DNA of 64,000 nucleotides from Gammaproteobacteria bacterium. GTDB taxonomy: Bacteria > Pseudomonadota > Gammaproteobacteria > 21-64-14. This document shows positions 12,088 through 61,680 of this stretch, piece after piece. Under the pieces are notes generated by a model. It was not told where the DNA came from and did no database searches. It worked only from the letters and a program-made list of their open reading frames with translations. Every line of letters begins with the position of its first letter. Position 1 is the stretch's first letter. Both the position numbers and the translations under genes were made by a program. The stretch spans positions 124,001 to 188,000 of the forward strand of contig JALUXX010000036.1 of the NCBI GenBank assembly GCA_027013145.1, written 5' to 3'.

Positions 12088-12400
12088 GGCGGGCGAGCCC
12101 CGGCCTACGGTCGCCCCGGCGTCGATGCCTCCGCGGTAGGGCGGGCCTCGGCCCGCCGACGACGCTGGATCCGAACGCCGTCGCCCGAATCCACGGCCCC
12201 GGCCGGGCAAGCCCGGCCCTACCCCGCATCCACGCCGCGCCGGCCCCCGTAGGGCGGGCCTCGGCCCGCCGACGACGCTGGATCCGAACGCCTCGCCCGA
12301 ATCCACGGCCCCGGCCGGGCAAGCCCGGCCCTACCCCGCAACCATGCCGCGCCGGTCCCGGCAGGGCGGGCCTTGGCCCGCCGACGACGTTTGATGCCAA
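12085..12400. repeat. Tandem REPIN-like palindromic repeats after pilU
   Basis: This 347-base gap between pilU and pyrK is made of repeats. A unit of about 113 bp starts at 12136 and again at 12249, with a partial third at 12361. Each unit has two palindromes, GGCGGGCC-TC-GGCCCGCC and GGCCGGGC-AA-GCCCGGCC, facing each other as a doublet bounded by GTAGGGC and GCCCTAC (12136-12222 in the first unit). The spacer contains GACGACGCTGGATCCGAACG, shared with repeats near 51.4 and 61.4 kb. A degenerate related palindrome overlaps the pilU stop. Confidence 0.85.
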
Positions 12401-12434
12401 CGGCGCCGCCCGGGGATCGGCGGTGTCACCGGCC

Positions 12435-20568: not shown

Positions 20569-21006
20569 ATGAGCATACTCACACAGGAGCACACCGTGGC
20601 AGGAGGCGAAGTGAGCGCGGACGCCTTTGCGGGACTGAAGGTCATGGTGATCGACGACAGCAAGACCATCCGCCGCACCGCGGAGACCCTGCTCAAAAAA
20701 GAGGGTTGCGAGGTGGTGACGGCGACGGACGGGTTCGAGGCGCTGGCCAAGATCGCCGACGAGCGTCCCGACATCATCTTCGTGGACATCATGATGCCGC
20801 GGCTGGACGGATATCAGACCTGCGCGCTGATCAAACACAACCAGGCGTTCAAGTCGACGCCGGTGATCATGCTCTCGAGCAAGGACGGCCTGTTCGATCG
20901 CGCCCGCGGGCGCATCGTGGGTTCGGAACAGTATCTGACCAAACCGTTCACCCGCGAGGAGCTGCTGCAGGCGATACGCGACTACGTCGTTCGCGAACCG
21001 GCGTGA
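20569..21006 (+). CDS. pilG: Pil-Chp response regulator PilG
   Basis: This 145-residue single-domain CheY-like protein has the acidic pair in VMVIDDSKTIRR, the phosphoacceptor Asp in IIFVDIMMPRLDG and the conserved Lys in YLTKPF. Its N-terminal extension of about 25 residues fits PilG. Phosphorylated PilG promotes pilus extension and cAMP signalling in Pseudomonas. It is the first gene of the pilGHIJK-chpABC operon. Confidence 0.95.
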   Translation: MSILTQEHTVAGGEVSADAFAGLKVMVIDDSKTIRRTAETLLKKEGCEVVTATDGFEALAKIADERPDIIFVDIMMPRLDGYQTCALIKHNQAFKSTPVIMLSSKDGLFDRARGRIVGSEQYLTKPFTREELLQAIRDYVVREPA

Positions 21007-21013
21007 CCGGGGC

Positions 21014-21057
21014 GGGCGCAAGGGCAAGGGCAAGGGCAGGGGCAAGGGCAGGGGCAG
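21014..21057 (+). repeat. GGGCAA/GGGCAG hexamer tandem repeats between pilG and pilH
   Basis: Six exact hexamers GGGCA(A/G) run from 21022 to 21057, with a degenerate unit upstream. They begin eight bases after the pilG stop and end just before the pilH ribosome binding site (AACAGGAGACC). The repeated GGG runs on the sense strand could form a quadruplex in mRNA, and copy number could change by slippage. Confidence 0.85.
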
Positions 21058-21079
21058 GAACTTAACAGGAGACCCATCA

Positions 21080-21445
21080 ATGGCACACGTGTTGATCGTA
21101 GACGATTCGCCCACCGAGGTGCATGTCCTCAAGACCATGCTGGAGAAGAACGGCTATCAGGCCTCCTTCGCCACCGACGGCGAGGACGGCGTGGCCAAGG
21201 CGCATTCCGAGAAACCCGACGTGATCCTCATGGATATCGTCATGCCCGGGTTGAACGGTTTCCAGGCGACGCGCCAGCTCAGCAAGGACCCGGACACCGC
21301 CTCGATCCCCGTGATCATCGTCAGCACGAAGGATCAGGAGACCGACAAGATGTGGGGCCTGCGCCAGGGGGCGAAGGAGTACATCACCAAGCCGGTGACC
21401 GAAAAGGAACTGGTGAGCAAGATCAAGACCGTACTGGGCGGGTAG
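21080..21445 (+). CDS. pilH: Pil-Chp response regulator PilH
   Basis: The 121-residue CheY-like protein has VLIVDDSPTEV, phosphoacceptor Asp in VILMDIVMPGLNG, and Lys in YITKPV. In Pseudomonas PilH acts mainly as a phosphate sink or retraction regulator opposed to PilG. Start ATG follows AACAGGAG at a normal distance. pilI starts five bases after the stop. Confidence 0.95.
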   Translation: MAHVLIVDDSPTEVHVLKTMLEKNGYQASFATDGEDGVAKAHSEKPDVILMDIVMPGLNGFQATRQLSKDPDTASIPVIIVSTKDQETDKMWGLRQGAKEYITKPVTEKELVSKIKTVLGG

Positions 21446-21449
21446 GATC

Positions 21450-22013
21450 ATGCAGCAGGGAACGCTCCCGGATGAGCACTGCCCCGGCGACCCCTTCGCG
21501 TTGCTGCTCGAGATCGAGCGGCGCAGTCGGGCGAACGCCGCGGGACTCCCGCGTCAGACCGAGGTCAAGGGGGTCTGGAACGGCATCGGCTTCCGTATCG
21601 GGGCCGCCACCCTCGTGGCGCCGCTCGACGAGGTCGCCGAGATCCTCACCCACCCGGCGCTCTCGCGGGTGCCGCTGGCCAAGTCCTGGGTCAAGGGGAT
21701 CGCCAACGTGCGCGGAAATCTGTTGCCGATCATGGACCTGCAGGGCTACCTGGGGCGCGGCCATGCGTCGCAGGAGCGGACCGCCCGGGTACTCGTGGTA
21801 CACCACGAAGGGGTGTTGGCCGGACTGCTGGTGGACGAGGTCCTGGGGATCCGCCACTTCCTCGAGGAGGAGCGCACGTCCGAGCTGCCGGAACTGGACG
21901 AGGCGGTGCGCCCCTACGTGAGTTACGCATACCGCAAGGGGGGGGAGCACTGGGCCGTCTTCAGCCTCTATGCGCTCGCCCGGACCCCGCGGTTCATGCA
22001 GGTGGCGGTCTGA
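21450..22013 (+). CDS. pilI: CheW-like adaptor PilI
   Basis: The 187-residue protein carries a CheW domain: FRIGAATLVAPLDEVAEIL, VKGIANVRGNLLPIMDLQGYLG and LVDEVLGIRHF. It should link the receptor PilJ to the ChpA kinase. It is in the standard position between pilH and pilJ. Confidence 0.93.
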   Translation: MQQGTLPDEHCPGDPFALLLEIERRSRANAAGLPRQTEVKGVWNGIGFRIGAATLVAPLDEVAEILTHPALSRVPLAKSWVKGIANVRGNLLPIMDLQGYLGRGHASQERTARVLVVHHEGVLAGLLVDEVLGIRHFLEEERTSELPELDEAVRPYVSYAYRKGGEHWAVFSLYALARTPRFMQVAV

Positions 22014-22022
22014 GTCCGGCGA

Positions 22023-22053
22023 GTTGAAAAAGTCCGTCCCGGACTTTTTCAAC
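22023..22053 (+). promoter_or_regulatory. 31-nt perfect hairpin upstream of pilJ
   Basis: A 13-bp perfect inverted repeat (arms GTTGAAAAAGTCC and GGACTTTTTCAAC) with a 5-base loop GTCCC lies 10 bases after the pilI stop and 27 before the pilJ ATG. The pilJ ribosome binding site AAAGGAG follows. A hairpin of the same size and design precedes the degP-type gene at 38887-38917, with four compensatory stem changes. It might tune pilJ mRNA level or translation. Confidence 0.75.
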
Positions 22054-22080
22054 ACATTGTTTGTTTAAAGGAGAGCAACG

Positions 22081-24111
22081 ATGAAGGCACGAAGCGGCGG
22101 CTATCTCGGAGGGTTGGGCGCCAACCGGTCCCTGACCTCTCTGATCGCCCTGGTGGTCATCCTGTTCGTCGCCATGGTGGCGTCGATCCTGTACACGATC
22201 CGCCAGAACGGCCTCGACAAGCTGGCCGTCGGGCGGGTGAACCAGGAGCGCATCCTGGCCCAGGGCCTGGCGATCGAGTCGCTGGAGGCGGCCAACGGCA
22301 AGGCCGACGCCATGGCGCAGTTGCGCCGGGACCGCGACCGGTTTCAGGAGAACCTCGACCGCCTGCGCAACGGCGACCCGGACACCGGCATGCCGCCGGC
22401 GCCGGCGAGCGTGCGTCCGGCGCTGGACTCGCTGTCCACGAACTGGGTGACGGTGCGCGGAAACGTCGCCACCATCCTCGCCGGCGGGATCACGGTGACC
22501 TCCGTCGACCAGTCCCTCAAGCAGGTCGACGAGACCATCCCGAAGATCTCCGCGCGCTACGAGCAGATCGTCGACCGGATGTTGGCGCTCAAGGCGCCGG
22601 AGCGGGTCGTGGTCGCGGTGACGCGCCAGACGGCGCTGCTCGAGCGGATCCAGAACACCCTGCGCAAGATCTTCCAGGGCGGGCAGACCGGTGCCCTCGC
22701 CGCCGACGCCTTCGGGCGCGACATCACCCGCTTCAGCCGCGTCCAGCAGGCGCTGCTCAACGGTGACCCGGGGCTGAGGATCAAACCGCTCACGGATCCC
22801 CAGGCGCGCGCCGATCTGGTCGCCGCGGTCAAGTATTTTAACGGCCTCGATCAGGAACTCTCCGGCGCACTGGCCCGGACCTCGGAGCTGTTCCGGATCC
22901 GCGACGCCGCCGCGCGCGTGGCCGCGCTGTCCACGCGCCTGTCGAAGTCTGCCGACGACGTCGCCGCCGCCTACGACCTGGCGCCGAAGAAGCGGTTGAT
23001 CTCCAGCCAGCTGCCCTTCGAACTCGGCGGCGTCGCGCTGATCATGCTCGGTATCCTCGGCTGGGAGCTGAAGAAGTCCGCCGAGCGCCAGTATCAGCAG
23101 GAGGCGGCCCAGAACGAGCGTAACCAGCAGGCCATCCTGCGCCTGCTCGACGAACTGGGCACCCTGGCCGACGGCGACCTGACGGTGCACGCCACGGTCA
23201 CCGAGGACATGACCGGGGCGATCGCCGACTCGATCAACTACGCCGTGGACGCCCTGCGCAACCTCGTCGGCACCATCAACGAGACCACCGTCCAGGTGTC
23301 CTCGGCGGCGCAGGAGACCCAGGCGACGGCGATGCACCTCGCCGAGGCCAGCGACCGCCAGGCACAGCAGATCACGGCGGCGAGCTCGGCGGTCAACGAG
23401 ATGACCGCATCGATCGAACACGTCTCGCGCAACGCCGCCGAGTCGGCCGAGGTGGCCCAGCACTCGGTGCGCATCGCGCACACCGGCGCCGAGGCGGTGC
23501 GCCGCACCATCCAGGGCATGGACACCATCCGCGAGCAGATCCAGGAGACCTCGAAGCGGATCAAGCGTCTGGGCGAGAGTTCCCAGGAGATCGGCGACAT
23601 CGTCGAGCTGATCAACGACATCGCCGACCAGACCAACATCCTCGCGCTCAACGCCGCGATCCAGGCGGCCATGGCGGGCGAGGCCGGGCGCGGTTTCGCG
23701 GTCGTCGCCGACGAGGTGCAGCGCCTCGCCGAGCGCTCCGGCAACGCCACCAAGCAGATCGAGGCGCTGGTCAAGACCATTCAGACCGACACCAACGAGG
23801 CGGTCATCTCGATGGAGGAGAGCACCTCCGGGGTGGTCAGCGGCGCCAAGCTCGCCGAGAGCGCGGGCGAGGCACTGGCCGAGATCGAGAGCGTGTCGGA
23901 CCAGCTCGCCGACCTCATCCAGAACATCTCCGATGCGGCGCGCCAGCAGGCCCAGGCTTCGGTGAACATTTCCGATACGATGAACTCGATCCTGGATATC
24001 ACCACCCAGACGGCCACGGGTACGAACGAAACCGCGACCTCGATCGGCAACCTGGCGGACTTGGCCAACGAGCTGCGCAAGTCCGTCGCCGGCTTCAAGC
24101 TTCCCGGGTAA
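22081..24111 (+). CDS. pilJ: Methyl-accepting chemotaxis receptor PilJ
   Basis: This 676-residue receptor has a membrane segment at about residues 18-40, a periplasmic domain up to about 313, a second membrane segment near 316-332, a HAMP-like region, and a cytoplasmic signalling helix. The signalling hairpin is visible as [21 protein letters not shown] and [14 protein letters not shown]. PilJ senses surface contact or pili and controls ChpA. The gene follows pilI after a conspicuous hairpin. Confidence 0.95.
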
Positions 24112-24131
24112 GCCCCAGGTGCCGATCGGTG

Positions 24132-25049
24132 ATGGCGGCGAGTGAAAACGTGCAGTTCGGGGAATCGCCACGCCGCGGTTCGCTGCCCGCCATGCCCGCG
24201 GGGCAGTTCGAACAGTGGGCGCGCATACTCGAGCAGCGCACCGGAATCGTCGTGCCTCCGGAGCGCAAGTCGTTCCTGGCGACGAGCATCGCACTGCGCA
24301 TGCGGGAGATCGGCTGTGAGGACTTTCAGGAGTACTTCGATTTCGTGCAGGCCGGCCGCGAGGGGGCGATCGAGTGGGCGGTGCTGCTCGACCGGCTGAC
24401 CGTCCACGAGACGCGCTTCTTCCGCCATCCGCCGAGTTTCCGGATGATCCGGGCGCACTTTCTTCCCTACGGGGAGAATCCGGGCCCGGGACCGCGCGCC
24501 TACAATGCGCTCAGCATCGGCTGCGCCACCGGCGAGGAGCCCTACAGTCTGGCGATGATGATCGACGAGCACCTCTCCGGGCTGGGCGGCGAGTACTACT
24601 TCGGCGTGACCGCGATGGACATCAGCTACGCGGCGCTCAACGTCGGCCGGCGCGGGGTCTACGGGCCGGAGCGGCTCAAGGACGTACCCCCGAGCCTGCG
24701 CGCGCGCTATTTCGAGCGTCAGGACGACCACAGCGCACGGGTCTGCGGGGCGCTGCGCCGTCGGGTCTGTTTCGCGCACATGAACGTGCTCGATCTCGAC
24801 GCCTCGCCGCTGCCGAAGATGGACCTGATCCTGTGCCAGAACGTGCTCATCTACCTCGATCGGGGGCGGCGCATGGACCTGGTGGAACGCCTGGCCGCAC
24901 GCCTGCGCCCGGGCGGCGGGCTGGTGCTTGCGCCGGGGGATCTGCTCTCCTGGCGTCCCGCCGGGATGGAGCGCATCTCCTTCCCGGACACCCTGGCCTA
25001 CCGGCGCCTTGACGGCGCCGCCGACAACGGACAAGGAACCAGCGCATGA
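24132..25049 (+). CDS. pilK: CheR-type methyltransferase PilK
   Basis: The 305-residue product has the CheR layout: N-terminal helical domain with GIVVPPERKSFL, then a SAM-binding domain with LSIGCATGEEPYSLAM and DLILCQNVLIYLDRG. It should methylate glutamates of PilJ. The start may be the GTG at 24129 or the ATG at 24132; both give nearly the same protein. Its stop overlaps the chpA start as ATGA. Confidence 0.93.
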   Translation: MAASENVQFGESPRRGSLPAMPAGQFEQWARILEQRTGIVVPPERKSFLATSIALRMREIGCEDFQEYFDFVQAGREGAIEWAVLLDRLTVHETRFFRHPPSFRMIRAHFLPYGENPGPGPRAYNALSIGCATGEEPYSLAMMIDEHLSGLGGEYYFGVTAMDISYAALNVGRRGVYGPERLKDVPPSLRARYFERQDDHSARVCGALRRRVCFAHMNVLDLDASPLPKMDLILCQNVLIYLDRGRRMDLVERLAARLRPGGGLVLAPGDLLSWRPAGMERISFPDTLAYRRLDGAADNGQGTSA

Positions 25050-28000
25050 TGCCGCGCAGCGAAGGAATGGACTACAGCGCCCTGAACTGGGTGAAGAAGG
25101 AACTCGACGAGACCATCCGGCAGGCGCGGCTGGCACTGGAGGCGTTCGTCGAGAACCCCAGCGACGCCTCGCAACTGCAGTTCTGCGTGACCCATCTGCA
25201 TCAGGCCCGCGGGACGCTGCACATGGTCGAGGTCGACGGCGCGGCGCTGCTCGCCGAGGAACTCGAGGTCCTGGGGCGTGCGCTGATCGATGGTGAGATC
25301 GAGCGCAAGGACGAGGCCTACGAGGTCCTCATGCGCGGGATCCTGCAACTGCCGGACTATCTCGACCACGTCCAGGCGGGTCATCCCGACATCCCGGTCG
25401 TCCTGCTGCCGCTGCTCAACGACCTGCGCGCCCTGCGCGGCGAGTCGCTGCTCTCGGAGAACGCCCTGTTCACCCCGGACCTGACCGTGCCGGTGCCGCC
25501 GCCGCGCGAGCGCGAGTCCTTCGCGCGCGACTCGGGCGAATTGCGGCGGCTGTTGCGGCGCCTGCGCCACGACCTGCAGCTCGGCCTGCTCGGATGGTAC
25601 CGGGGACGCGACCCGCGGGCGGGTCTGGATCGCATCCTCGCGGTGATCGAGCACCTCGATCAGCTCACCCAGCTCGAGCCGGTGCGCCGCCTGTGGTGGA
25701 TCAGCGCGGGCCTGGTCGAGGCGCTGCGCGACGAGGCGCTGGAGGCCAGCGTCTCGGTCAAGCTCCTCCTGGGGCAGGTGGACCGGCGACTCAAGCAGCT
25801 CATCGACGGGGGCGAGGCGGTCCTCGCCGCGGATCTGGCGCCCGATCTGCTGCGCAACATGCTCTATTACGTCGCCCGCGCCGCAGGCGGCGGCGAACGC
25901 GTGAACGCCCTGAAGACTGCGTTCGATCTGGAGCGGCTGCTCCCCGGCGAGGCGTTCGGCGCGGGCGCCGCGCTCGGACCGGGGGTGGATTCGCTGCGCG
26001 CCGTCGCCGAGGCCGTCAAGGAGGACCTCGCCGCCGTCAAGGACGGCCTGGACCTCTACGTGCGCAGCGAGCCGCGCAACCCGGCGGGCCTGGCGCCGCT
26101 GCCGGACATCCTGCGGCGCGCCGCCGATACCTTCGGGATGCTGAGTCTCGGCGCGCAGCGGCGTCTGGCGCAGGAACAGGCCGAGCGCATCGCGGCGATC
26201 GCCGAAGGCGACAGCGATCCCGACGAGGAGACGTTCACGGCGATCGCCGGCGCCATCCTCGAGATCGAGGCCTCCCTCGATCAGATGGCCGCGGGCGGCG
26301 CAGTCTCCGCGGTCGGGGTGCCGGGCGGGGATGCGGCGGGCGCGACCGAGGCGGCGCCGGCGGCGGAGGAGACCGCGCCGGCGGTCAACCCGGGGCGCGT
26401 CAGCGACTCGGAATTCCGGCTCCTGGTCCTGGCCATGGCGCGCGAGGCGGCGGAGAACATGGCGCGCATCAAGGAGGCGGTGGTCGCGTGGCTGGGCGCA
26501 CCGGCGGCCGGCGCGTCGGGCCTCGACGAGGTCCCGCGATGGCTCGCCGAGGTCAAGGGGAGCTTCCAGATCCTGAATCTGCCGCGCGCGGCGCAGGCGG
26601 TGCAGGCGCTGACCGACTACGTGGGCACGTCCCTGGCCGGGCGCACGGAGGCGCCGCCGAGTGGCGAGCAGGACACCCTGGCCGACGTCATCGCGGGGAT
26701 CGAGTACTACCTCGAAGCCGTGGTCGAGCACCGCGCCGACCGCGAGGCGATCCTCGACCGCGTCGATGCGGACCTCGGCCGCCTCGGATCTTCGCCGGAC
26801 GAGCCGAGCGGCGGTCCGGGCGGCGGGGAGCCGGTTGCCGACGGCGGGGTCGACGCCGCCGGTCCCGATGTCTTCCCCCTCTCCGCGCCGGCCGCGGAGA
26901 CGGCGCCGCCGGAAGTCGACGCGGGCCCCCACCTCGGGGAGCGGGCCGCGTCCGGCGACGCGTCCGATCCGCACGGGTATGCGCCGGCGGAGGCGGAGGA
27001 CAGGGATACGCCGACTGACGCGGCGGTCCTCTCCCCGGCGCCGGCGGACCCGGGCCTGGAGGTGGCCGCGGAGGTGCAGGCGGAACCGGGGGCGGGGGAG
27101 GGGCCGGAGGCCGGGGCGGTGGAGTTGGCGCCGGTGCTGGCGGAGGACGGGGATCCGGAGATTCTGGCGATCTTTCTCGAGGAGGCGGAAGAGGAGCTGG
27201 GGTCGCTGCGCACGCAGGTGCCGCGATGGGTGCAGGATCGCGAGGACCGGGAGGCGCTGGGGACGATCCGGCGCTCGTTCCATACGCTCAAGGGCAGCGG
27301 GCGGCTGAGCGGGGCGTTGCGGGTGGGGGAGTTCGCCTGGGCGCTGGAGTCGTTGCTGAACCGGGTGTTGGAGGGGGAAGGGGCGGATGCGGCGGCGGTG
27401 GGGGTGGTCGGCGAGGCGGTGGAGCTGCTGCCGGGGCTGATCGAGGAGTTGCGCGGGGGCGAGGGATGTGATGCGGCGGCGGTGGCGGCGCTGATGGGGC
27501 GCGCGCAGGCGCTGGCGCGCGGGGAGGATGCGGGGGCGGCGGCGCCTGTGGCGGAGACGGCGCAACCGGAACCGAAGCCGGAAGTGGACGCGCTGGCGGA
27601 ACCGGAGCCGGCGGCAGAGACCGGGGCGGAGGCGGGCCCGGGCCTGGAGGTGGCCGCGGAGGTGCAGGCGGAAGCGGAGCCGGCGGCGGAGACCGGGGGG
27701 CCGGAACCGGAGGCGGGGGAGGGGCCGGAGGCCGGGGCGGTGGAGTTGGCGCCGGTGCTGGCGGAGGACGGGGATCCGGAGATTCTGGCGATCTTTCTCG
27801 AGGAGGCGGAAGAGGAGCTGGGGTCGCTGCGCACGCAGGTGCCGCGATGGGTGCAGGATCGCGAGGACCGGGAGGCGCTGGGGACGATCCGGCGCTCGTT
27901 CCATACGCTCAAGGGCAGCGGGCGGCTGAGCGGGGCGTTGCGGGTGGGGGAGTTCGCCTGGGCGCTGGAGTCGTTGCTGAACCGGGTGTTGGAGGGGGAA

Positions 28001-31000
28001 GGGGCGGATGCGGCGGCGGTGGGGGTGGTCGGCGAGGCGGTGGAGCTGCTGCCGGGGCTGATCGAGGAGTTGCGCGGGGGCGAGGGATGTGATGCGGCGG
28101 CGGTGGCGGCGCTGATGGGGCGCGCGCAGGCGCTGGCGCGCGGAGAGGATGCGGGGGCGGCGGCGCCTGTGGCGAAGACGGCGCAACCGGAACCGGAAGC
28201 GGCCGCGGAGGCGCAGCCGGCGGCGGAACCGGCGGCGGAGTTCGAAGCGGACCCGGTGGCCGGGGAGGCGGAAGAGGCGCGCACGCGAACGGAGTCCGAA
28301 TCAGAGTCGCCCGATGCCTCCGCGGAGGCGGGACCCGCGGGGCGGTTCGCGGATCCGGTCCTCTACGAGACCTTCTCGCAGGAGGTGCAGGACCATCTCG
28401 CGACCGTCGAGGCATTCGTCGAGTCCTGCGACGAGGCGGACGGCTCGTGCCACGTCACCGAGGAGTTGGTCCGCGCGTTTCACACGCTGCACGGCAGCGC
28501 TTACATGGCGGGAGTCCCGGAGATCGCGGGCGTCGCCGAGGCCCTGGAGCGGCTGTTGCGTCTGCCGGCGGCCGCCGAGGCGGGCGGGGCGCAGGGGCTG
28601 GTTCCGCTGATCGCCGAGGGTGCCGCCACGGTGCGCGCGCAACTCGCGGCGTTGGCCGCGCCCGGCGGTGAGGCCCCGGACGCCGGACCCCTGCTCGAAC
28701 GCATCGCGCGCCTCGCCGAGGAGCATCGGGCGCGCGGAGGTCGCTGGCCGGAACCGTTCGCGGCGCAGCGACCCGCGGTCGAACCGGCCGGTGACGCCGC
28801 GCCGCCCCCGGCGAACTCCGAGGCGGCGCCCGCCCGCGCGGCCCCGGCGCCCGAGCCGGAACCGGAACCGGAACCGGCGTCCGTACCCGCCGCCGGAACG
28901 GGCGACGAACTGGCCGGGGAGCTGGTGGAGATCTTCCTCGAGGAGGCGGAGGAGCTCCTCGATGCGGCCGACGACATCCTGCAGGCCTGGGAGCGGCACC
29001 CCGAGGAGGTGCGTCGCGTCACCGAACTGCAGCGTGCGCTGCATACCCTGAAGGGCGGGGCGCGCATGGCCGACATCGCGGCGATCGCCGACCTCAGTCA
29101 CGCCATGGAGTCGCTGCTCAGCGCCGTGGTCGACGGCCACGTGGAGGCGTCCTGGGACCTGTTCCAGACCCTGCACGCGACCGTCGACCAGCTCCATGCG
29201 ATGCAGGAATCCGTGCGTGCGGGCGCCGCCCCGGAACCCGCCCCGGACCTCGTCGCCGACCTGGAGGCGGCCCGCAGCGGTCGCAGTGCGCCGGTGTCCG
29301 GGGAGGCGGCGGCACCGGATCCGGCTACGGAACCCGCGCCGCTCGGGACGGAGGCCGATGCAGCGCCGGCCGCCCCGGCCGGGGTGGCCGTTGCGGCGGA
29401 GGTGGAGACGGACCTCGAGGATCCCGCGCTGGATGCGCAGACGGCGGCGGATCTTTCGCAGACGCCGGCCCGTGCCGCCATGCGGGTGGAACGCCGTTCG
29501 GCGCCCCGCGTGCAGTCCGAGAACGTGCGCGTGCGGGCGGACCTCCTCGACAACCTGGTGAACTACGCCGGCGAGGTGAGCATCTACCGCTCGCGCATGG
29601 AGCAGCAGACCGCCGCGATCCGTTTCAACCTGGTGGAGTTCGATCAGACGGTGGAGCGCCTGCGCGAGCAGTTGCGCCGGCTCGAGATCGAGACCGAGGC
29701 GCAGATCCTCTACCGTCACGAGGTCGAAGTGGAGGCCCGGGCGGACTTCGATCCGCTGGAGCTGGACCGCTATTCGCAGGTGCAGCAGCTCTCGCGCGGT
29801 CTCGCCGAGAGCGTCAACGACCTCGTCAGCATCCAGGGGCTGCTCGACCATCTGGCGCGCGAATCCGAGACCCTGCTGCTGCAGCAGTCGCGCGTGAACA
29901 CGGATCTCCAGGAAGGCCTCATGCGCACCCGCATGGTGCCCTTCGCGGGGCTGGTGCCGCGCCTGCGGCGCATCGTGCGCCAGACCTGCACGACGCTCGG
30001 CAAGCGCGCCGAACTCAAGGTGCAGGGGGCCGAGGGCGAGATGGACCGCACCGTGCTCGACCGCCTCGTCGCTCCGCTCGAACACATGCTGCGCAACGCC
30101 ATCTCCCACGGCATCGAGACGCCGGAGGTGCGCCGCGCCGCCGGCAAGGCGGAGGCCGGGACGGTGCTGCTCAGTCTCGGGCGCGAGGGCTCCGAGGTCG
30201 TCATCCGGGTGTCGGACGACGGCGCCGGCATCGATCTCGATGCGATCCGCGCGAAGGCCATCGAACGCGGGCTGCTCGCCGCCGACGCCGAGGTCAGCGA
30301 TCACGACGTCATGCAGTTCATCCTCGAGTCGGGTTTCAGCACCGCACGTACGCTCACCCAGATATCGGGCCGCGGCGTGGGCATGGACGTCGTCAACAGC
30401 GAGATCAAGCAGCTCGGCGGGCAGCTCGAGATCGACTCTCGCGCGGGGCGCGGCATGACCTTCACGGTGCGCCTCCCGTTCACTCTGGCGGTCACCCAGG
30501 CGCTGCTGGTCAACGTGAGCGACGAGGTCTATGCGATCCCGCTCTCCAGCGTGGAGGGCATCGTGCGCCTGGGTTACGACGAGATCTCGCGCTGCCTCGG
30601 CGATGAGGATCCCGCCGTGGACTACGCCGGCCAGCGCTACCGGTTGATCCACATGGGCGCGCTGCTCGGGCTCGCGGCCCCGCCGGTACAGGCCGACCGC
30701 AAGGTGCCGGTGCTGCTGGTGCGCAGCGGCGATCACCAGAGCGCGGTCCTCGTCGACGGGCTGGTCGGCAGCCGCGAGATCGTCGTCAAGTCAGTGGGGC
30801 CGCAGCTCAGCACCGTGCGCGGCATCTCCGGGGCCACCATCCTCGGCGACGGGCGCGTGGTCCTGATCGTCGACGCCGGCACCCTGCTGCGCCTGTCGGC
30901 TGCGGTGCACGGGGCGGCCCCGGCCGAGGAGGAGCCGGAGCCGGAGGCGGAGTCGAGCGGGCGCGTCACCGTCATGGTGGTCGACGACTCGATCACGGTG

Positions 31001-31348
31001 CGCAAGGTCACCACGCGGCTCCTGGAGCGCCACGACATGGACGTGATCACGGCGAAGGACGGTGTAGACGCCGTCGCCCTGCTCCAGGAGCATATCCCGG
31101 ATGTCATGCTGCTCGACATCGAGATGCCGCGCATGGACGGTTTCGAGCTGGCCACGCACATGCGCAACGAGGAGCGGCTGCGCGACATCCCCATCATCAT
31201 GATCACCTCGCGCACCGGCGAGAAGCACCGCGAACACGCCATGCGGATCGGCGTGAACCGATATCTCGGCAAACCGTACCAGGAGGGCGAGTTGCTCGAG
31301 AACATCCACGCGCTGCTCGACGAGCGTGCCGGGCATGGCGGGCGATGA
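25046..31348 (+). CDS. chpA: Pil-Chp hybrid chemotaxis kinase ChpA (multiple Hpt, CheA, CheW, receiver)
   Basis: This 2100-residue protein is the kinase of the Pil-Chp array. Hpt-type histidines are visible at H52 (N-terminal, LHQARG), H746, H953, H1146 and H1333, the last four in HTLKG or HTLHG motifs. A further Hpt-like unit near residue 510 (LAEVKGSFQILNL) has no histidine. The CheA part begins near 1495, with ATPase motifs LRNAISHG (about 1680), DDGAGID and GRGVGMD, then a CheW-like domain and a C-terminal receiver with phosphoacceptor D2024. Hpt units at H746 and H953 are copies of one another, identical over 432 bases. Linkers are rich in Ala, Glu and Pro. The P. aeruginosa homologue is longer (about 2470). 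Confidence 0.95.
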   Translation: MMPRSEGMDYSALNWVKKELDETIRQARLALEAFVENPSDASQLQFCVTHLHQARGTLHMVEVDGAALLAEELEVLGRALIDGEIERKDEAYEVLMRGILQLPDYLDHVQAGHPDIPVVLLPLLNDLRALRGESLLSENALFTPDLTVPVPPPRERESFARDSGELRRLLRRLRHDLQLGLLGWYRGRDPRAGLDRILAVIEHLDQLTQLEPVRRLWWISAGLVEALRDEALEASVSVKLLLGQVDRRLKQLIDGGEAVLAADLAPDLLRNMLYYVARAAGGGERVNALKTAFDLERLLPGEAFGAGAALGPGVDSLRAVAEAVKEDLAAVKDGLDLYVRSEPRNPAGLAPLPDILRRAADTFGMLSLGAQRRLAQEQAERIAAIAEGDSDPDEETFTAIAGAILEIEASLDQMAAGGAVSAVGVPGGDAAGATEAAPAAEETAPAVNPGRVSDSEFRLLVLAMAREAAENMARIKEAVVAWLGAPAAGASGLDEVPRWLAEVKGSFQILNLPRAAQAVQALTDYVGTSLAGRTEAPPSGEQDTLADVIAGIEYYLEAVVEHRADREAILDRVDADLGRLGSSPDEPSGGPGGGEPVADGGVDAAGPDVFPLSAPAAETAPPEVDAGPHLGERAASGDASDPHGYAPAEAEDRDTPTDAAVLSPAPADPGLEVAAEVQAEPGAGEGPEAGAVELAPVLAEDGDPEILAIFLEEAEEELGSLRTQVPRWVQDREDREALGTIRRSFHTLKGSGRLSGALRVGEFAWALESLLNRVLEGEGADAAAVGVVGEAVELLPGLIEELRGGEGCDAAAVAALMGRAQALARGEDAGAAAPVAETAQPEPKPEVDALAEPEPAAETGAEAGPGLEVAAEVQAEAEPAAETGGPEPEAGEGPEAGAVELAPVLAEDGDPEILAIFLEEAEEELGSLRTQVPRWVQDREDREALGTIRRSFHTLKGSGRLSGALRVGEFAWALESLLNRVLEGEGADAAAVGVVGEAVELLPGLIEELRGGEGCDAAAVAALMGRAQALARGEDAGAAAPVAKTAQPEPEAAAEAQPAAEPAAEFEADPVAGEAEEARTRTESESESPDASAEAGPAGRFADPVLYETFSQEVQDHLATVEAFVESCDEADGSCHVTEELVRAFHTLHGSAYMAGVPEIAGVAEALERLLRLPAAAEAGGAQGLVPLIAEGAATVRAQLAALAAPGGEAPDAGPLLERIARLAEEHRARGGRWPEPFAAQRPAVEPAGDAAPPPANSEAAPARAAPAPEPEPEPEPASVPAAGTGDELAGELVEIFLEEAEELLDAADDILQAWERHPEEVRRVTELQRALHTLKGGARMADIAAIADLSHAMESLLSAVVDGHVEASWDLFQTLHATVDQLHAMQESVRAGAAPEPAPDLVADLEAARSGRSAPVSGEAAAPDPATEPAPLGTEADAAPAAPAGVAVAAEVETDLEDPALDAQTAADLSQTPARAAMRVERRSAPRVQSENVRVRADLLDNLVNYAGEVSIYRSRMEQQTAAIRFNLVEFDQTVERLREQLRRLEIETEAQILYRHEVEVEARADFDPLELDRYSQVQQLSRGLAESVNDLVSIQGLLDHLARESETLLLQQSRVNTDLQEGLMRTRMVPFAGLVPRLRRIVRQTCTTLGKRAELKVQGAEGEMDRTVLDRLVAPLEHMLRNAISHGIETPEVRRAAGKAEAGTVLLSLGREGSEVVIRVSDDGAGIDLDAIRAKAIERGLLAADAEVSDHDVMQFILESGFSTARTLTQISGRGVGMDVVNSEIKQLGGQLEIDSRAGRGMTFTVRLPFTLAVTQALLVNVSDEVYAIPLSSVEGIVRLGYDEISRCLGDEDPAVDYAGQRYRLIHMGALLGLAAPPVQADRKVPVLLVRSGDHQSAVLVDGLVGSREIVVKSVGPQLSTVRGISGATILGDGRVVLIVDAGTLLRLSAAVHGAAPAEEEPEPEAESSGRVTVMVVDDSITVRKVTTRLLERHDMDVITAKDGVDAVALLQEHIPDVMLLDIEMPRMDGFELATHMRNEERLRDIPIIMITSRTGEKHREHAMRIGVNRYLGKPYQEGELLENIHALLDERAGHGGR
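27091..27522 (+). repeat. Internal chpA duplication, copy 1
   Basis: By eye this stretch is base-for-base identical to 27712-28143, 621 bases further on and in the same frame. It encodes a complete Hpt module with H746. The match continues imperfectly on both sides, with single-base differences at 27090 and 27524. On the left, the second copy has an extra 33 bases (11 codons). G-rich codons such as GGG, GTG and TTG are more frequent here than in the rest of chpA. Confidence 0.93.
27712..28143 (+). repeat. Internal chpA duplication, copy 2
   Basis: Second copy of the 432-base segment at 27091-27522, encoding the Hpt module with H953. The lack of even silent differences points to a recent duplication or ongoing gene conversion. 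A collapsed or expanded assembly is also conceivable for such a long exact repeat. Confidence 0.93.
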
Positions 31349-32546
31349 GCGGACTCCGCTGCGGGTCGCGGTCCTTGCGCAATCCGGACCACGCCGCGAG
31401 GCCGTAGGGCGGCAGCTCGAGCGCCAGGGCTTTCAGCTTGCGGCGGTCGCCGCCGCGGATGCGGAGGCGATCGCGCAGGTGCTCGCGCTGCCGGAGATCG
31501 ACCTGCTCCTGGTCGACCTCGACGACGAGAGCCTCGCCGACCCCGGAGCGCTGCTGCCGCTGCTCGAACACAGCAGGGTCCCGGTCCTGTTCAACGATGC
31601 CGGCGCCGCCGGCCAGGCCGATCTCGGCCCGCGACTGACCCGCAAGTTCCGCCTCCTGAGCGGCACGCGCCCGCCGCGCCTGTCGTTGTCCGGGGCGCCG
31701 GCCGCACCCGCGGGCGAGCCGCGCGCCGCGGCGCCGCGCGATGGGGACCCGGCCGGGCGCGGCGCGGACGCGGACCGGGTCGGGACGGACGCGCAGGACC
31801 GCGCCCCGGCAGAGGACGCGGCCCCGGCGCCCATGGATCCGGTGCCGGGGGGGCGCACACTCGAGCGGCGCGCACCCGCGTCGGGCGGTTCCGGGCCGGC
31901 GGTCGAAGCGCCCGCGCGGGAGGCGCGGGCGGACGCGCCGGCCGCGGCGGGCGGGGACCGGGCACGGCGCGTGTGGGTGCTCGGCGCCTCTCTCGGCGGA
32001 CCCCAGGCGGTGCGCGCCTTCCTTCATCGCCTGCCGGGGGATCTGCCGGTCGCGTTCATCCTCGCGCAGCACATCGGCGAGGGCTTCGACCGGCTGCTGG
32101 CGAGCCAGCTCGATCGCGAGACCGCCCTGCGCGTGGGCTGTGCCCGCGCCGGGGCCCGCCTGCGCCACGGCGAGGTCCTGCTCGCGCCGCTCGACCAGTC
32201 GCTGCGCCTCGACCGATCCGGGGCCGTGCGCCTGGAGCCGCGGGTGGAGCGCGGAATCTACAGCCCGTCGATCGACGATGTGATGGGCGAGGTCGCGCGC
32301 TGCTACGGCGCCCTCGCCGGTGCGATCGTCTTCAGCGGCATGGGCGACGATGGGATCGAGGGCGCCCGCGCGATCGCCGCGGAGGGCGGAACCGTATGGG
32401 CCCAGGACGCCGCGAGTGCGGTCATCAGCAGCATGCCGGATCACGCGCGCCGCGCGGGGGTGGTGAGCCTCAGCGGTCCGCCCGAGAGCCTGGCCGAGCA
32501 ACTGGTGCGCACCCTCGCGGCACCCGGGGCGTCGGCGGCGCTGTGA
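31335..32546 (+). CDS. chpB: CheB-like methylesterase ChpB
   Basis: The 403-residue protein has a C-terminal CheB esterase domain with catalytic S219 in LGASLGGP, H246 in AQHIG and D339 in GMGDDG. The N-terminal domain (1-115) resembles a receiver but reads VAVLAQSG where a receiver has VxVVDDS, so it is probably not phosphorylated normally; a DLDD near residue 60 remains. A variable Ala/Pro/Gly-rich linker joins the two. ChpB should demethylate PilJ. The start overlaps the end of chpA by 14 bases. Confidence 0.9.
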   Translation: MAGDERTPLRVAVLAQSGPRREAVGRQLERQGFQLAAVAAADAEAIAQVLALPEIDLLLVDLDDESLADPGALLPLLEHSRVPVLFNDAGAAGQADLGPRLTRKFRLLSGTRPPRLSLSGAPAAPAGEPRAAAPRDGDPAGRGADADRVGTDAQDRAPAEDAAPAPMDPVPGGRTLERRAPASGGSGPAVEAPAREARADAPAAAGGDRARRVWVLGASLGGPQAVRAFLHRLPGDLPVAFILAQHIGEGFDRLLASQLDRETALRVGCARAGARLRHGEVLLAPLDQSLRLDRSGAVRLEPRVERGIYSPSIDDVMGEVARCYGALAGAIVFSGMGDDGIEGARAIAAEGGTVWAQDAASAVISSMPDHARRAGVVSLSGPPESLAEQLVRTLAAPGASAAL

Positions 32547-32657
32547 CCGCCCGCCCCGGTTGCAGGGGGCGGAAACGACGTCGATGCGGCGTCGTAAAGA
32601 AGGCTTGAACGGGCCGGCGCGGGCCGGACGAGGAACCCAGGACCGAGGAGCTTCGAG

Positions 32658-33140
32658 ATGAGCCAGAGTGCAACCGCAACCGCCACCGCCGAGGTGCGGG
32701 TACGCAGCCTGCTGCTGCCGATCGTCGACGGGCAGCTCCTGCTGCCCAACGCCGCCGTCGCCGAGATCGTCCCCTATACCGACCCGGAGCCGCTGCCGCG
32801 GGCCCCCGACTGGATGCTGGGTCTGTTCCAGTGGCGCGAGCGCCGGGTGCCGACGCTCTCCTTCGAGGCCGTGTGCGGCGGTCCGGTGCCGCCGGCCGGC
32901 GCGCGCGCGCGTGTGGCCGTGATCAACGCCCTCTCCGGCTGGCTGGATCCGCCGTTCTACGCCCTCGTGATCCGCGACCTGCCGCACCTGGTGCAGGTCG
33001 GGCGCGACGGCATCCGCACGCTGGACGATTCCGGACCGGCCCACGCGGCCGTACGCAGCACGGTGGACGTGCTCGGCGAGACCGCCCACATCCCGTCGCT
33101 GGACACGCTCGAGGGCATGCTGCGCAACGTCATCGCCTGA
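32658..33140 (+). CDS. chpC: CheW-like adaptor ChpC
   Basis: This 160-residue protein is a single CheW-like domain (LLLPIVDGQLLLPNAAVAEIV, DWMLGLFQWRERRVPTLSFE). ChpC is thought to couple further receptors to ChpA. It ends the Pil-Chp operon, 111 bases after chpB, with AGGAGC before the ATG. Its stop sits inside a hairpin shared with the converging rsmE. Confidence 0.9.
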   Translation: MSQSATATATAEVRVRSLLLPIVDGQLLLPNAAVAEIVPYTDPEPLPRAPDWMLGLFQWRERRVPTLSFEAVCGGPVPPAGARARVAVINALSGWLDPPFYALVIRDLPHLVQVGRDGIRTLDDSGPAHAAVRSTVDVLGETAHIPSLDTLEGMLRNVIA

Positions 33141-38886: not shown

Positions 38887-38917
38887 GTTGGGAAGGGCCG
38901 TTCCGGCCCTTCCCAAC
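38887..38917 (-). promoter_or_regulatory. 31-nt perfect hairpin upstream of the degP-type gene
   Basis: Arms GTTGGGAAGGGCC and GGCCCTTCCCAAC form a 13-bp perfect stem with a 5-base loop. It ends 20 bases before the GTG start; the ribosome binding site lies between them. It has the same length, loop size and end sequences as the hairpin at 22023-22053, with four matched stem substitutions. Confidence 0.75.
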
Positions 38918-39243
38918 TTCGCCGCGCCCGGCGCGTGTCCGTGCGCGGCTCCGACGGATCGGACACGGGGTGTCCGATCCGCGGGCGGGGCTTATCGCCC
39001 CGCCGCTATTGAGGGGGCGAGGGGCCCTGCGGCCCTTCCCGACTTCGCCGCGCCCGGCGCGTGTCCGTGCGCGGCTCCGACGGATCGGACACGGGGTGTC
39101 CGATCCGCGGGCGGGGCTTATCGCCCCGCCGCTATTGAGGGGGCGAGGGGCCCTGCGGCCCTTCCCGACTTCGCCGCGCCCGGCGCGTGTCCGTGCGCGG
39201 CTCCGACGGATCGGACACGGGGTGTCCGATCCGCGGGCGGGTC
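38917..39243. repeat. 126-bp tandem repeat array between cbpM and the degP-type gene
   Basis: Units start at 38917, 39043 and 39169; the third is cut off near 39243, giving about 2.6 copies. Each unit has a palindrome GATCGGACAC-GGG-GTGTCCGATC and a second stem GGCGGGGC-TTATC-GCCCCGCC. The length, 126, keeps the frame open in several frames, but none looks coding. No gene is visible in 38867-39299. Confidence 0.9.
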
Positions 39244-39249
39244 ATTATA
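39244..39249 (-). promoter_or_regulatory. Lone consensus -10 (TATAAT) upstream of the tandem array
   Basis: A perfect TATAAT reads on the minus strand right where the third repeat unit ends. There is no -35 at 16-18 bases, where the sequence is a G-run. If used, it would start an RNA of about 370 bases of leader carrying the array and hairpin before the degP-type gene. Confidence 0.3.
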
Positions 39250-39299
39250 CGGACCGGCGCGCGCGCGGGGGGTTCCGGGACGGGCCGGCGGCGGACGAT

Positions 39300-49345: not shown

Positions 49346-51226
49346 ATGCACGAGGATCTCACCCTGGCGCTGGCCCTGGTGGCGGCCCTGGGGATCGGCG
49401 CCCAGTGGGTGGCGTGGCGGCTGCATCAGCCGACCATCGTGCTCCTGCTCGTCGCCGGTCTGCTCGCCGGACCGGTCTTCGGCTGGTTGCACCCGTCCCG
49501 CGACTTCGGTGCGCTGCTGCATCCGATCATCCGGCTCGGCGTGGCCGTGATCCTGTTCGAGGGCGGGCTCAACCTGCACCTGCACGAGCTGCGCGAGGCG
49601 GCCACGGGCGTGAAGCGCCTGGTCTCGATCGGCGTCGTGCTGAGCTGGGTGCTCGGGAGTCTCGCCGCGCATTGGATCGGCGGGCTCTCCTGGCCGGTGT
49701 CGCTGGTCTTCGGTGCCATCACCGTGGTGACCGGGCCAACCGTCATCTTACCGCTGCTGCGCCACGCACGCCTCAACCGCCGTCCCGCTTCCTATCTCAA
49801 GTGGGAGGGGATCATCAACGATCCCCTCGGCGCGCTCCTCGCGGTCGTCGTGTTCCAGTACTTCATCTCCTCGGAGGGGCAGGCGTCGTTCCCGGCGGTG
49901 GCGGCGGGGCTCGCGCTCGGGCTGGCGGCCGCGGCCGCGCTCGGTGTGGGCGCGGGTCTCCTGACCGCCGCGGCGCTCGCGCGCGGCTACATCCCGGAGT
50001 TCCTCAAGGGCCCGGTCCTGTTCGCGGCGGTGCTGCTGATCTACATCGTCGCCAACCTCGCGCAGGCCGAGGCCGGCCTGCTGGCGGTGACCGTCTTCGG
50101 CGTCACGCTCGGCAATCGCCGTCTGGCGTCCATCGTCGAGATCCGCCGTTACAAGGAATACATGACGGTGCTGCTCGTCTCCGCGGTCTTCATCGTCCTG
50201 ACGGCGGATCTCGACCCGGCGGTGTTGGCGCGGCTCGACTGGCGCAGCGGGTTGCTGCTGGCGGCGCTGGTGTTCGCGGTGCGCCCGGTATCCGTGCTGC
50301 TGGCGACCTGGCGCGCCGGCATGACCTGGCCCGAGCGCGCGCTGGTGGCGTGGATCGCTCCCCGGGGCGTCGTCGCGGCCGCGGTGGCGGCCGTGTTCGC
50401 GCCGGAGATGGCCGCGCGCGGCTATCCCGATGCCGCGCTGCTCGTCCCGCTCGTCTTCGGACTCATCCTCGTCACCGTGCTGCTGCACGGGTTGAGCATC
50501 CAACGCCTGGCCTCGTGGCTCGGGCTGGCCTCCACCCGCCGCAACGGGGTCCTGATCGTCGGCGCCTCGCCGTGGGGAGTCGAACTGGCGCGTGTGCTCC
50601 AGGACCTGAAGGTCCCCGTGCTGATGGTCGATCAGTCGTGGGACCGCCTCAAGCCGGCCCGGCTCTCGGGGATCCGGGTCTCGTTCGGGGAGCTGCTCTC
50701 CGAGAGCGCGGAGGAGTCGCTCGAGCTGAACGACATCGGCTGGCTGCTCGCCGCCACCTACAACGACGCCTACAACGCCCTGGTGTGCACGCGCTTCGCT
50801 CCGGAACTCGGGCGCCGGCGCGTGTTCCAGCTGCGCCTGCACGGGGGGGACGAGGACGACCCGCGCGGGCTGCCGCGGACCCTGCGCGGAGAGGTGGTCT
50901 TCGACGAGGGTGCGACCTACGAGGAGCTGATGCGCCGTCACTACCAGGGCTGGCGCTTCCAGAAGACGCGCCTCACGGAGACCTACGATTACGAGGCCTT
51001 CCGGCGCGACTGCCCAAGCGATGCGCTGATCATGCTGCTCGTGCGCGAAGGCGGCGAGGTGGCATTCCAGTCATCGCGCAGTCCGCTCAAGCCGCGCGCG
51101 GGCGACACCGTGGTGTGCTATCTGCCCGCGGCCGAGCGCGCGCCGTCGCGCCCGCCGCCGAGCCCGGCCCCGCTGCCCGGCGAGCCCGCGCCCACCGCCT
51201 CCCAAGGCGCAACGGCGCGCCCGTAG
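49346..51226 (+). CDS. CPA1-type cation/proton antiporter with Rossmann regulatory domain
   Basis: The 626-residue protein has about twelve membrane segments (1-395) with ILFEGGLNL and the ion-site WEGIINDPLGALLAV. A cytoplasmic TrkA-N domain follows (about 405-500; GVLIVGASPWGVELARVL), then a C-terminal part and a Pro-rich tail. Such proteins exchange Na+ or K+ for protons. The ATG at 49346 has GGGAG upstream. The TAG stop is part of a palindromic repeat (GTAGGCCGGGCC), so the Pro-rich end may be a read-on extension. Confidence 0.85.
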   Translation: MHEDLTLALALVAALGIGAQWVAWRLHQPTIVLLLVAGLLAGPVFGWLHPSRDFGALLHPIIRLGVAVILFEGGLNLHLHELREAATGVKRLVSIGVVLSWVLGSLAAHWIGGLSWPVSLVFGAITVVTGPTVILPLLRHARLNRRPASYLKWEGIINDPLGALLAVVVFQYFISSEGQASFPAVAAGLALGLAAAAALGVGAGLLTAAALARGYIPEFLKGPVLFAAVLLIYIVANLAQAEAGLLAVTVFGVTLGNRRLASIVEIRRYKEYMTVLLVSAVFIVLTADLDPAVLARLDWRSGLLLAALVFAVRPVSVLLATWRAGMTWPERALVAWIAPRGVVAAAVAAVFAPEMAARGYPDAALLVPLVFGLILVTVLLHGLSIQRLASWLGLASTRRNGVLIVGASPWGVELARVLQDLKVPVLMVDQSWDRLKPARLSGIRVSFGELLSESAEESLELNDIGWLLAATYNDAYNALVCTRFAPELGRRRVFQLRLHGGDEDDPRGLPRTLRGEVVFDEGATYEELMRRHYQGWRFQKTRLTETYDYEAFRRDCPSDALIMLLVREGGEVAFQSSRSPLKPRAGDTVVCYLPAAERAPSRPPPSPAPLPGEPAPTASQGATARP

Positions 51227-51500
51227 GCCGGGCCTTGGCCCGCCGGCGGCGCCCGGAATCACGATTCCGGCCGGGGTGCCGCTGCGGCCTGCATGGGGAT
51301 GGGATAACAGCGCCACGGAACCCACCGAACCCACGGACCGATTGCCATCCTTCCGTGCATTCCGCGGGGTCCGTGGTCTCTTCCTGCGACCTTGGCCGGG
51401 CAAGCCCGGCCCTACCCCACCCCCCACGTCCGCACCGGTTCCGTAGGGCGGGCCTCGGCGCGCCGGCGACGCCGGATCCGAACACGGTCGCGTCGATCCA
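51222..51500. repeat. REP-like palindromes and a CCACGGAACC repeat
   Basis: The 333-base gap holds a GTAGGCCGGGCCTTGGCCCG palindrome overlapping the antiporter stop, an inverted one at 51394-51415 (GGCCGGGC-AA-GCCCGGCC) and another at 51443 onward, the last with the GGATCCGAAC spacer. Between, at 51312-51384, CCACGGAACCCACCGAACCC and a GGTCCGTGG form a second repeat type, also found at 56808-56875. Confidence 0.75.
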
Positions 51501-51559
51501 CGGCCTCGGCCTTACGGTACCGCCGACGGCGACGGGGGCACCCGCCGGCCGCGTCTCCC

Positions 51560-56768: not shown

Positions 56769-57035
56769 GTAGGGCCGGGCTTGCCCGGCCGACGCCGCGG
56801 GAAGAGGCCACGGAACCCACGGAACGCACGGAATGAATGAACCCGTCCGTGGGTTCCGTGGATTCCTTGGCGCCTTGGTCTGTTTTCGAAGGTCCCCGCC
56901 GCGCCGAAGGGAAACCGCAATCCGCGGCGTCGGCGGCGGGGTAGGGCCGGGCTTGCCCGGCCTACCGGCCTATGCCGTGGAACGGTGTGACATCGTGTGG
57001 ACCGAGCGTCGTCGGCGGGGCAAGCCCCGCCCTAC
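56769..57035. repeat. REP-like palindromes between mscS and gspC
   Basis: The 410-base gap between converging genes holds palindromes at 56769-56791 and 56941-56965 (both GTAGGGCCGGGCTTGCCCGG) and an inverted one at 57014-57035 (GGCGGGGC-AA-GCCCCGCC). At 56808-56875 CCACGGAACCCACGGAA faces CCGTGGGTTCCGTGG, the second dispersed repeat type. Also an inverted GGCGTTCGGATCGAAC spacer follows at about 57060. No gene is seen. Confidence 0.8.
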
Positions 57036-61407: not shown

Positions 61408-61630
61408 GCCGGGCAAGCCCGGCCCTACGGCCCCCCCTGCCGATCCCGGCGCCCGTAGGGCGGGCCTTGGCCCGCCGACGACGTTTGATCCGAACGCCAT
61501 GGTTTCGATTGACGACGTCGCCCCGTAGGGCGGGCCTTGGCCCGCCGACGACGTTTGATCTGAACGCCATGGTTTCGATTGACGACGTCGCCCTGCAGGG
61601 CGGGCCTTGGCCCGCCGATCACGTCTGATT
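61407..61630. repeat. REP-like palindrome and 70-bp tandem repeat after rho
   Basis: A GGCCGGGC-AA-GCCCGGCC palindrome (61407-61428) starts in the rho stop codon. A 70-bp unit then starts at 61455, 61525 and, partial, 61595. Each has GTAGGGCGGGCCTTGGCCCG and a tail with GACGACGTTTGATCCGAACG and ATGGTTTCGATTGACGACG. The cluster fills most of the gap between converging rho and glgP. Confidence 0.88.
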
Positions 61631-61680
61631 CGGGCCGCGTCGGATCGATCGATTGCGCCGGTCCGGCCTGCGTCGGCCCG

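Follow-up and report, generated by a model that had tools for sequence, protein, structure and literature searches.

The window analysed here, a stretch of 64,000 nucleotides, carries a pil-chp gene cluster on its + strand. Two CheY-like response regulators occupy the pilG/pilH position (20569–21445), followed by a pilI-like CheW, a pilJ MCP and a pilK-like CheR (21450–25049), by chpA (25046–31348), and by a chpB-like CheB methylesterase and a chpC-like CheW (31326–33140). The chpA gene encodes 2100 residues, in which Pfam detects Hpt (five stretches), and, within 29519–31306, H-kinase_dim (residues 1492–1547), HATPase_c (1677–1813), CheW (1818–1949), and Response_reg (receiver, 1976–2087). 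The CheA core, the multiple N-terminal Hpt domains combined with a C-terminal receiver, and the gene order pilG-pilH-pilI-pilJ-pilK-chpA-chpB-chpC all agree, and, judged by its sequence, the product of 25046–31348 is a Tfp-class CheA (ChpA) in a pil-chp cluster.

A home-built profile resolves seven Hpt-like domains ahead of the kinase core. The first, class H1 (residues 9–96; 25070–25333), has its histidine in the segment THLHQARG, and the next two, N2 (315–401; 25988–26248) and N3 (459–545; 26420–26680), are without the canonical histidine. These are followed by two modules of class A (703–788 and 910–995; A1 and A2), which is the first histidine-bearing class after the N-terminal part of ChpA, by class B (1103–1185; 28352–28600; HTLHG), and by the kinase-proximal class C (1291–1377; 28916–29176; HTLKGGAR). 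The domain order is thus H1-N2-N3-A-A-B-C, and A1 and A2 are identical.

In a self-comparison of the window, copy 1 (27091–27522, A1) and copy 2 (27712–28143, A2) match exactly over 432 nt, the longest exact run at an offset of 621, which bears out the perfect in-frame duplication in chpA claimed in the original prediction. As 621 nt equal 207 codons, the repeat is in frame with the + strand reading frame 25046–31348. The homologous unit is wider than this perfect core, and in a gapped alignment extends over about 27037–27640 and about 27625–28255, i.e., about 588–621 nt with diverged linkers included. The linker upstream of copy 1 (27037–27080) is homologous to 27625–27668 at an offset of 588, and a 33-nt insertion ahead of copy 2 shifts the offset from 588 to 621. 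Just beyond the core, the copies differ by G/A at 27090/27711, 27523/28144, and 27554/28175, and the downstream linker contains small indels in the same alignment. Inside the core the copies are alike at about 117 synonymous sites, and a perfect repeat of this length with that many matching synonymous sites is far beyond chance. No third copy was found elsewhere in the genome, a 67-contig draft that could conceal further identical copies.

Among local perfect direct repeats in 458 kb of sampled genome, the runner-up measures about 200 nt and belongs to an array with a 126-nt period, likewise in the window, and all others are 106 nt or shorter. The array (38894–39271) repeats its 126-nt unit three times in tandem (96% and 82% identity) directly upstream of a − strand ORF, assigned from its translation by eye as a DegP/HtrA-like protease. 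The window also holds nine copies, with none expected by chance, of a palindrome-containing interspersed repeat, GTAGGGCGGGCCTYGGCCCGCC, located at 12133–12427, 51223–51509, and 61452–61661 (+), and at 57014–57035 (−). The copies are partly in tandem, with spacings of 113/112 and 70 nt, and resemble intergenic REP-like elements. A strict G-quadruplex motif scan of the two chpA repeat copies returned no motif, and such a structure was rejected as a source of repeat instability. An antisense ORF (24998–28186) that spans both copies was likewise rejected as a gene, because its register matches that of the sense codons and it merely reflects the scarcity of TTA, CTA, and TCA codons.

Perfect repeats of 432 nt are poorly handled by short-read assemblies, and the source of the window is a draft, which raises the question of whether one A module has been written twice. 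A falsely doubled module would need a linker built from the two outer flanks, and the linker between the copies (27523–27711) is not of this kind. Besides the 33-nt insertion, it contains some 50–60 nt without a counterpart in either flank (local alignment scores of at most 13 and 17 over 63 nt); this sequence can only have been read from between two copies. Of the 220 31-mers that start in 27493–27711, 212 occur once in the window. The two copies are furthermore phased by the three G/A differences and the 33-nt indel. An assembly artefact is therefore highly improbable; the likelier error with such a repeat is an undercount that hides more than two copies, and two copies are the minimum number.

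The repeat encodes a complete phosphotransfer module. An AlphaFold2 prediction of its translation (residues 683–825) yields a five-helix bundle with a pLDDT of 94, for which the best PDB matches are the CheA P1 domains 3kyi and 1i5n (TM 0.73–0.76, Foldseek E about 2e-3 to 4e-3). In an alignment of 29 modules, the motif FHTLKGSGR shows almost no variation or none, so that module A combines the four/five-helix bundle and the H-[TS]-L-K-G motif by which an Hpt (CheA P1) domain is recognised. The earlier proposal that each copy holds a full Hpt unit agrees with profile, motif, and predicted fold alike, and its two phospho-histidine candidates, H746 (codon 27281–27283, in SFHTLKGSG) and H953 (codon 27902–27904), are both the histidines of an HTLKG motif. 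According to the model, A1 and A2 should both fold, each with a predicted phosphorylatable histidine.

To place the pair among its relatives we compared 124 ChpA proteins, the one of the window included, of which 117 are full-length. By class assignment, the commonest order is H1-N2-N3-A-B-C (71 of 117 full-length proteins), and class A is single in 108 of the 124. Extra A modules are uncommon (12 of 124), and in seven of these 12 the second A scores weakly and stands in the order A-B-C-A-C. Extra C modules are common, with at least two in 43 of 124 proteins. The best within-protein Hpt pair is 100% identical in the window, compared with 76% or less (median 35%) in the other 123 proteins, and none of the other 123 chpA genes has a near-identical DNA repeat of Hpt-module size; such DNA repeats as those genes do contain are short or form short-period arrays, and most of them lie in linkers. 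In a tree of Hpt domains from the window and its relatives, the domains group into classes by position; relatives have one ortholog per class, and among the proteins of this tree class A is doubled in the window only. A1 and A2 are sisters and adjoin the A module of the congener (support 0.98). The complete identity of the pair, together with the usual single A, points to a tandem duplication of module A that is very recent and specific to this lineage.

An A-A-B-C layout is also present in three proteins of one other family (L155, L163, and L178, from genomes G154, G264, and G359). As in the window, the same Hpt class is doubled in tandem at the same place, and both histidines are kept. Unlike the identical window copies, these A modules are only 46–56% identical, and their A1 and A2 each form a separate clade across two genera (support 0.75 and 0.85), which places this duplication before the split of the genera. 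It is of independent origin and has been retained. Short-period (63–108 nt) tandem repeats outside or between the Hpt domains are seen in the chpA genes of L029, L203, L034, and L187; recurring in several ChpA genes, they suggest that slippage often acts on the length of linkers, which evolve fast throughout the ChpAs.

The age of the duplication can be bracketed from synonymous divergence. A1 and A2 show no differences over about 117 synonymous sites, with a 95% upper bound on dS of about 0.026, compared with a dS to the congener of about 0.34 in module A and about 0.7 over the rest of chpA. Barring a reset of this clock by conversion, the duplication took place long after the two species separated. 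A contrast between flanks and core bears on this exception, as 3 of 91 flank sites differ between the copies and 0 of 432 core sites do (p 0.005). When only synonymous sites of the core are counted, a hand estimate of the same contrast is not significant (p about 0.08), and gene conversion was for this reason not adopted as the sole explanation. Since selection on the protein may account for part of the contrast, gene conversion stays a rival.

In its fuller form, this rival holds that the A-A tandem is older, perhaps dating to the ancestor of the genus, and that gene conversion, or an array that repeatedly expanded and contracted, has preserved the identity of the core. A perfect core between differing, indel-bearing linkers is what such a history would leave, but the flank-core contrast weakens once selection on the core protein is allowed for, and the general speed of linker evolution also counts against it. 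Further points come from the only congener compared (G001), in which chpA is split over two contigs (C40 and C36; loci L013, L089, and L090). Both contigs end inside module A, at the equivalents of window positions 27347 and 27404 (or 28025), so that the assembly breaks in the very module that is doubled here. The contig ends have no overlap and share no k-mers, which is also expected from a break at low coverage; either a repeat at this place or low coverage would explain the break.

A strong bias towards G at synonymous third positions marks a zone (26996–28315, +; codons about 651–1090) that spans exactly the A copies and their linkers. At fourfold sites in codons 651–1090, G has a frequency of about 0.8 and C of 0.14, compared with about 0.47/0.47 in the rest of chpA, and the zone supplies the top four of 285 hundred-codon segments sampled in the genome. 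The same bias is found at both contig ends of the A module in the congener, and to that degree in none of 15 other relatives, as would fit an older tandem shared by the two members of the genus. A horizontal origin of the G-biased module is not favoured, as A1 and A2 group with the A module of the congener inside the class-A clade. The G bias and the contig break in the congener go beyond what a simple one-off duplication explains. On balance, we regard the older, homogenised tandem as unlikely, though the foremost alternative to a very recent duplication.

The geometry of the repeat also bears on copy-number change. Exchange between the copies stays in frame and leaves open products of 1893 or 2307 residues, so that the number of A modules can change without breaking chpA. 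Variation in A number between strains is, from the sequence, mechanically possible. A further reading, in line with the original prediction, is a contingency locus, in which frequent RecA-dependent exchange across the 432-bp perfect direct repeat, with its copies 621 bp apart, leaves one, two or more A modules per cell and thereby tunes surface signalling. Most coding duplications of such size, however, decay or become fixed without a switching role. In our comparison, which covered one genome per species and one congener, differences in Hpt number between species trace mostly to duplications that are old and diverged, a pattern more suggestive of the ordinary evolution of domain number than of a proven fast switch. 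We consider a contingency locus improbable. A broader proposal would make class A of the genus a recombinationally active array, in which copy number changes fast, identity is kept by exchange, the G bias is linked to this activity, and the number of PilG/PilH donors differs from cell to cell and sets the gain of surface sensing; this is slightly less probable still.

The reading we prefer, and hold to be likely, is a very recent in-frame tandem duplication of a class A Hpt, with a unit of about 588–621 nt, that changed the domain order from H1-N2-N3-A-B-C to H1-N2-N3-A-A-B-C and gave ChpA a putative second Hpt2-type donor. Its observed core is that a complete class A module was doubled recently in this lineage, and that an A-A pair has been retained independently elsewhere. 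The probable route is unequal exchange between similar Ala/Glu/Pro-rich linkers. With respect to function, domain order and the class tree suggest that A, B, and C correspond to Hpt2, Hpt3, and Hpt4–6 of Pseudomonas aeruginosa. Class A equals the Pseudomonas domain d4 in both tree and profile assignment, and d4 equals Hpt2 only by the order of the histidine-bearing domains.

In P. aeruginosa ChpA, autophosphorylation takes place on Hpt4–6, from where phosphate moves via the ChpA receiver, and PilG and PilH are supplied mainly by Hpt2 and Hpt3 (PMC5812489). By analogy, A1 and A2 would take phosphate from the receiver and pass it on to PilG/PilH as two equivalent donors. Donor capacity would then increase with the kinase-proximal acceptors unchanged, and more phosphate could be stored at, and passed from, the donor stage. 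Given the position of class A, the most likely effect of the duplication is one more output donor, a second identical phosphodonor for PilG/PilH.

Variation in Hpt number is in itself a known property of Tfp-class CheAs. In the portions of Berry et al. considered here (PMC10542144/PMC10782961), these proteins have a variable number of Hpt domains, up to fourteen, together with a receiver, as does the window ChpA, and domain duplication is recognised as a source of diversity in multi-Hpt CheAs. A nucleotide-identical, freshly duplicated Hpt is not described in those portions. To the extent covered there, the window case would follow a known mode of growth, with a duplication that is unusually young. 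The reason for the many phosphotransfer domains in ChpA-type kinases is an open question (PMC12632253). Nearly all extra Hpts in the surveyed ChpAs are old and diverged, whereas the undiverged pair of the window shows such a gain at its very beginning. The gain also falls in a class thought to feed PilG/PilH, and not in the kinase-proximal class C where expansion is usual. With one versus two identical donors to compare, the window ChpA is a clean natural setting in which to ask whether the number of Hpts alone alters signalling.

Among the closest references is the Pil-Chp system of P. aeruginosa, with the same neighbourhood of PilG/H, PilI, PilJ, PilK, ChpA, ChpB, and ChpC. The Pseudomonas ChpA in our set (L030) has the order H1-N-N-A-B-C and a C-terminal receiver, as for the window ChpA apart from the doubled A. 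P. aeruginosa has three kinase-proximal Hpts (Hpt4–6) and, by order, one of Hpt2 type, whereas the window ChpA has one kinase-proximal Hpt, class C, and two identical Hpt2-type modules of class A.
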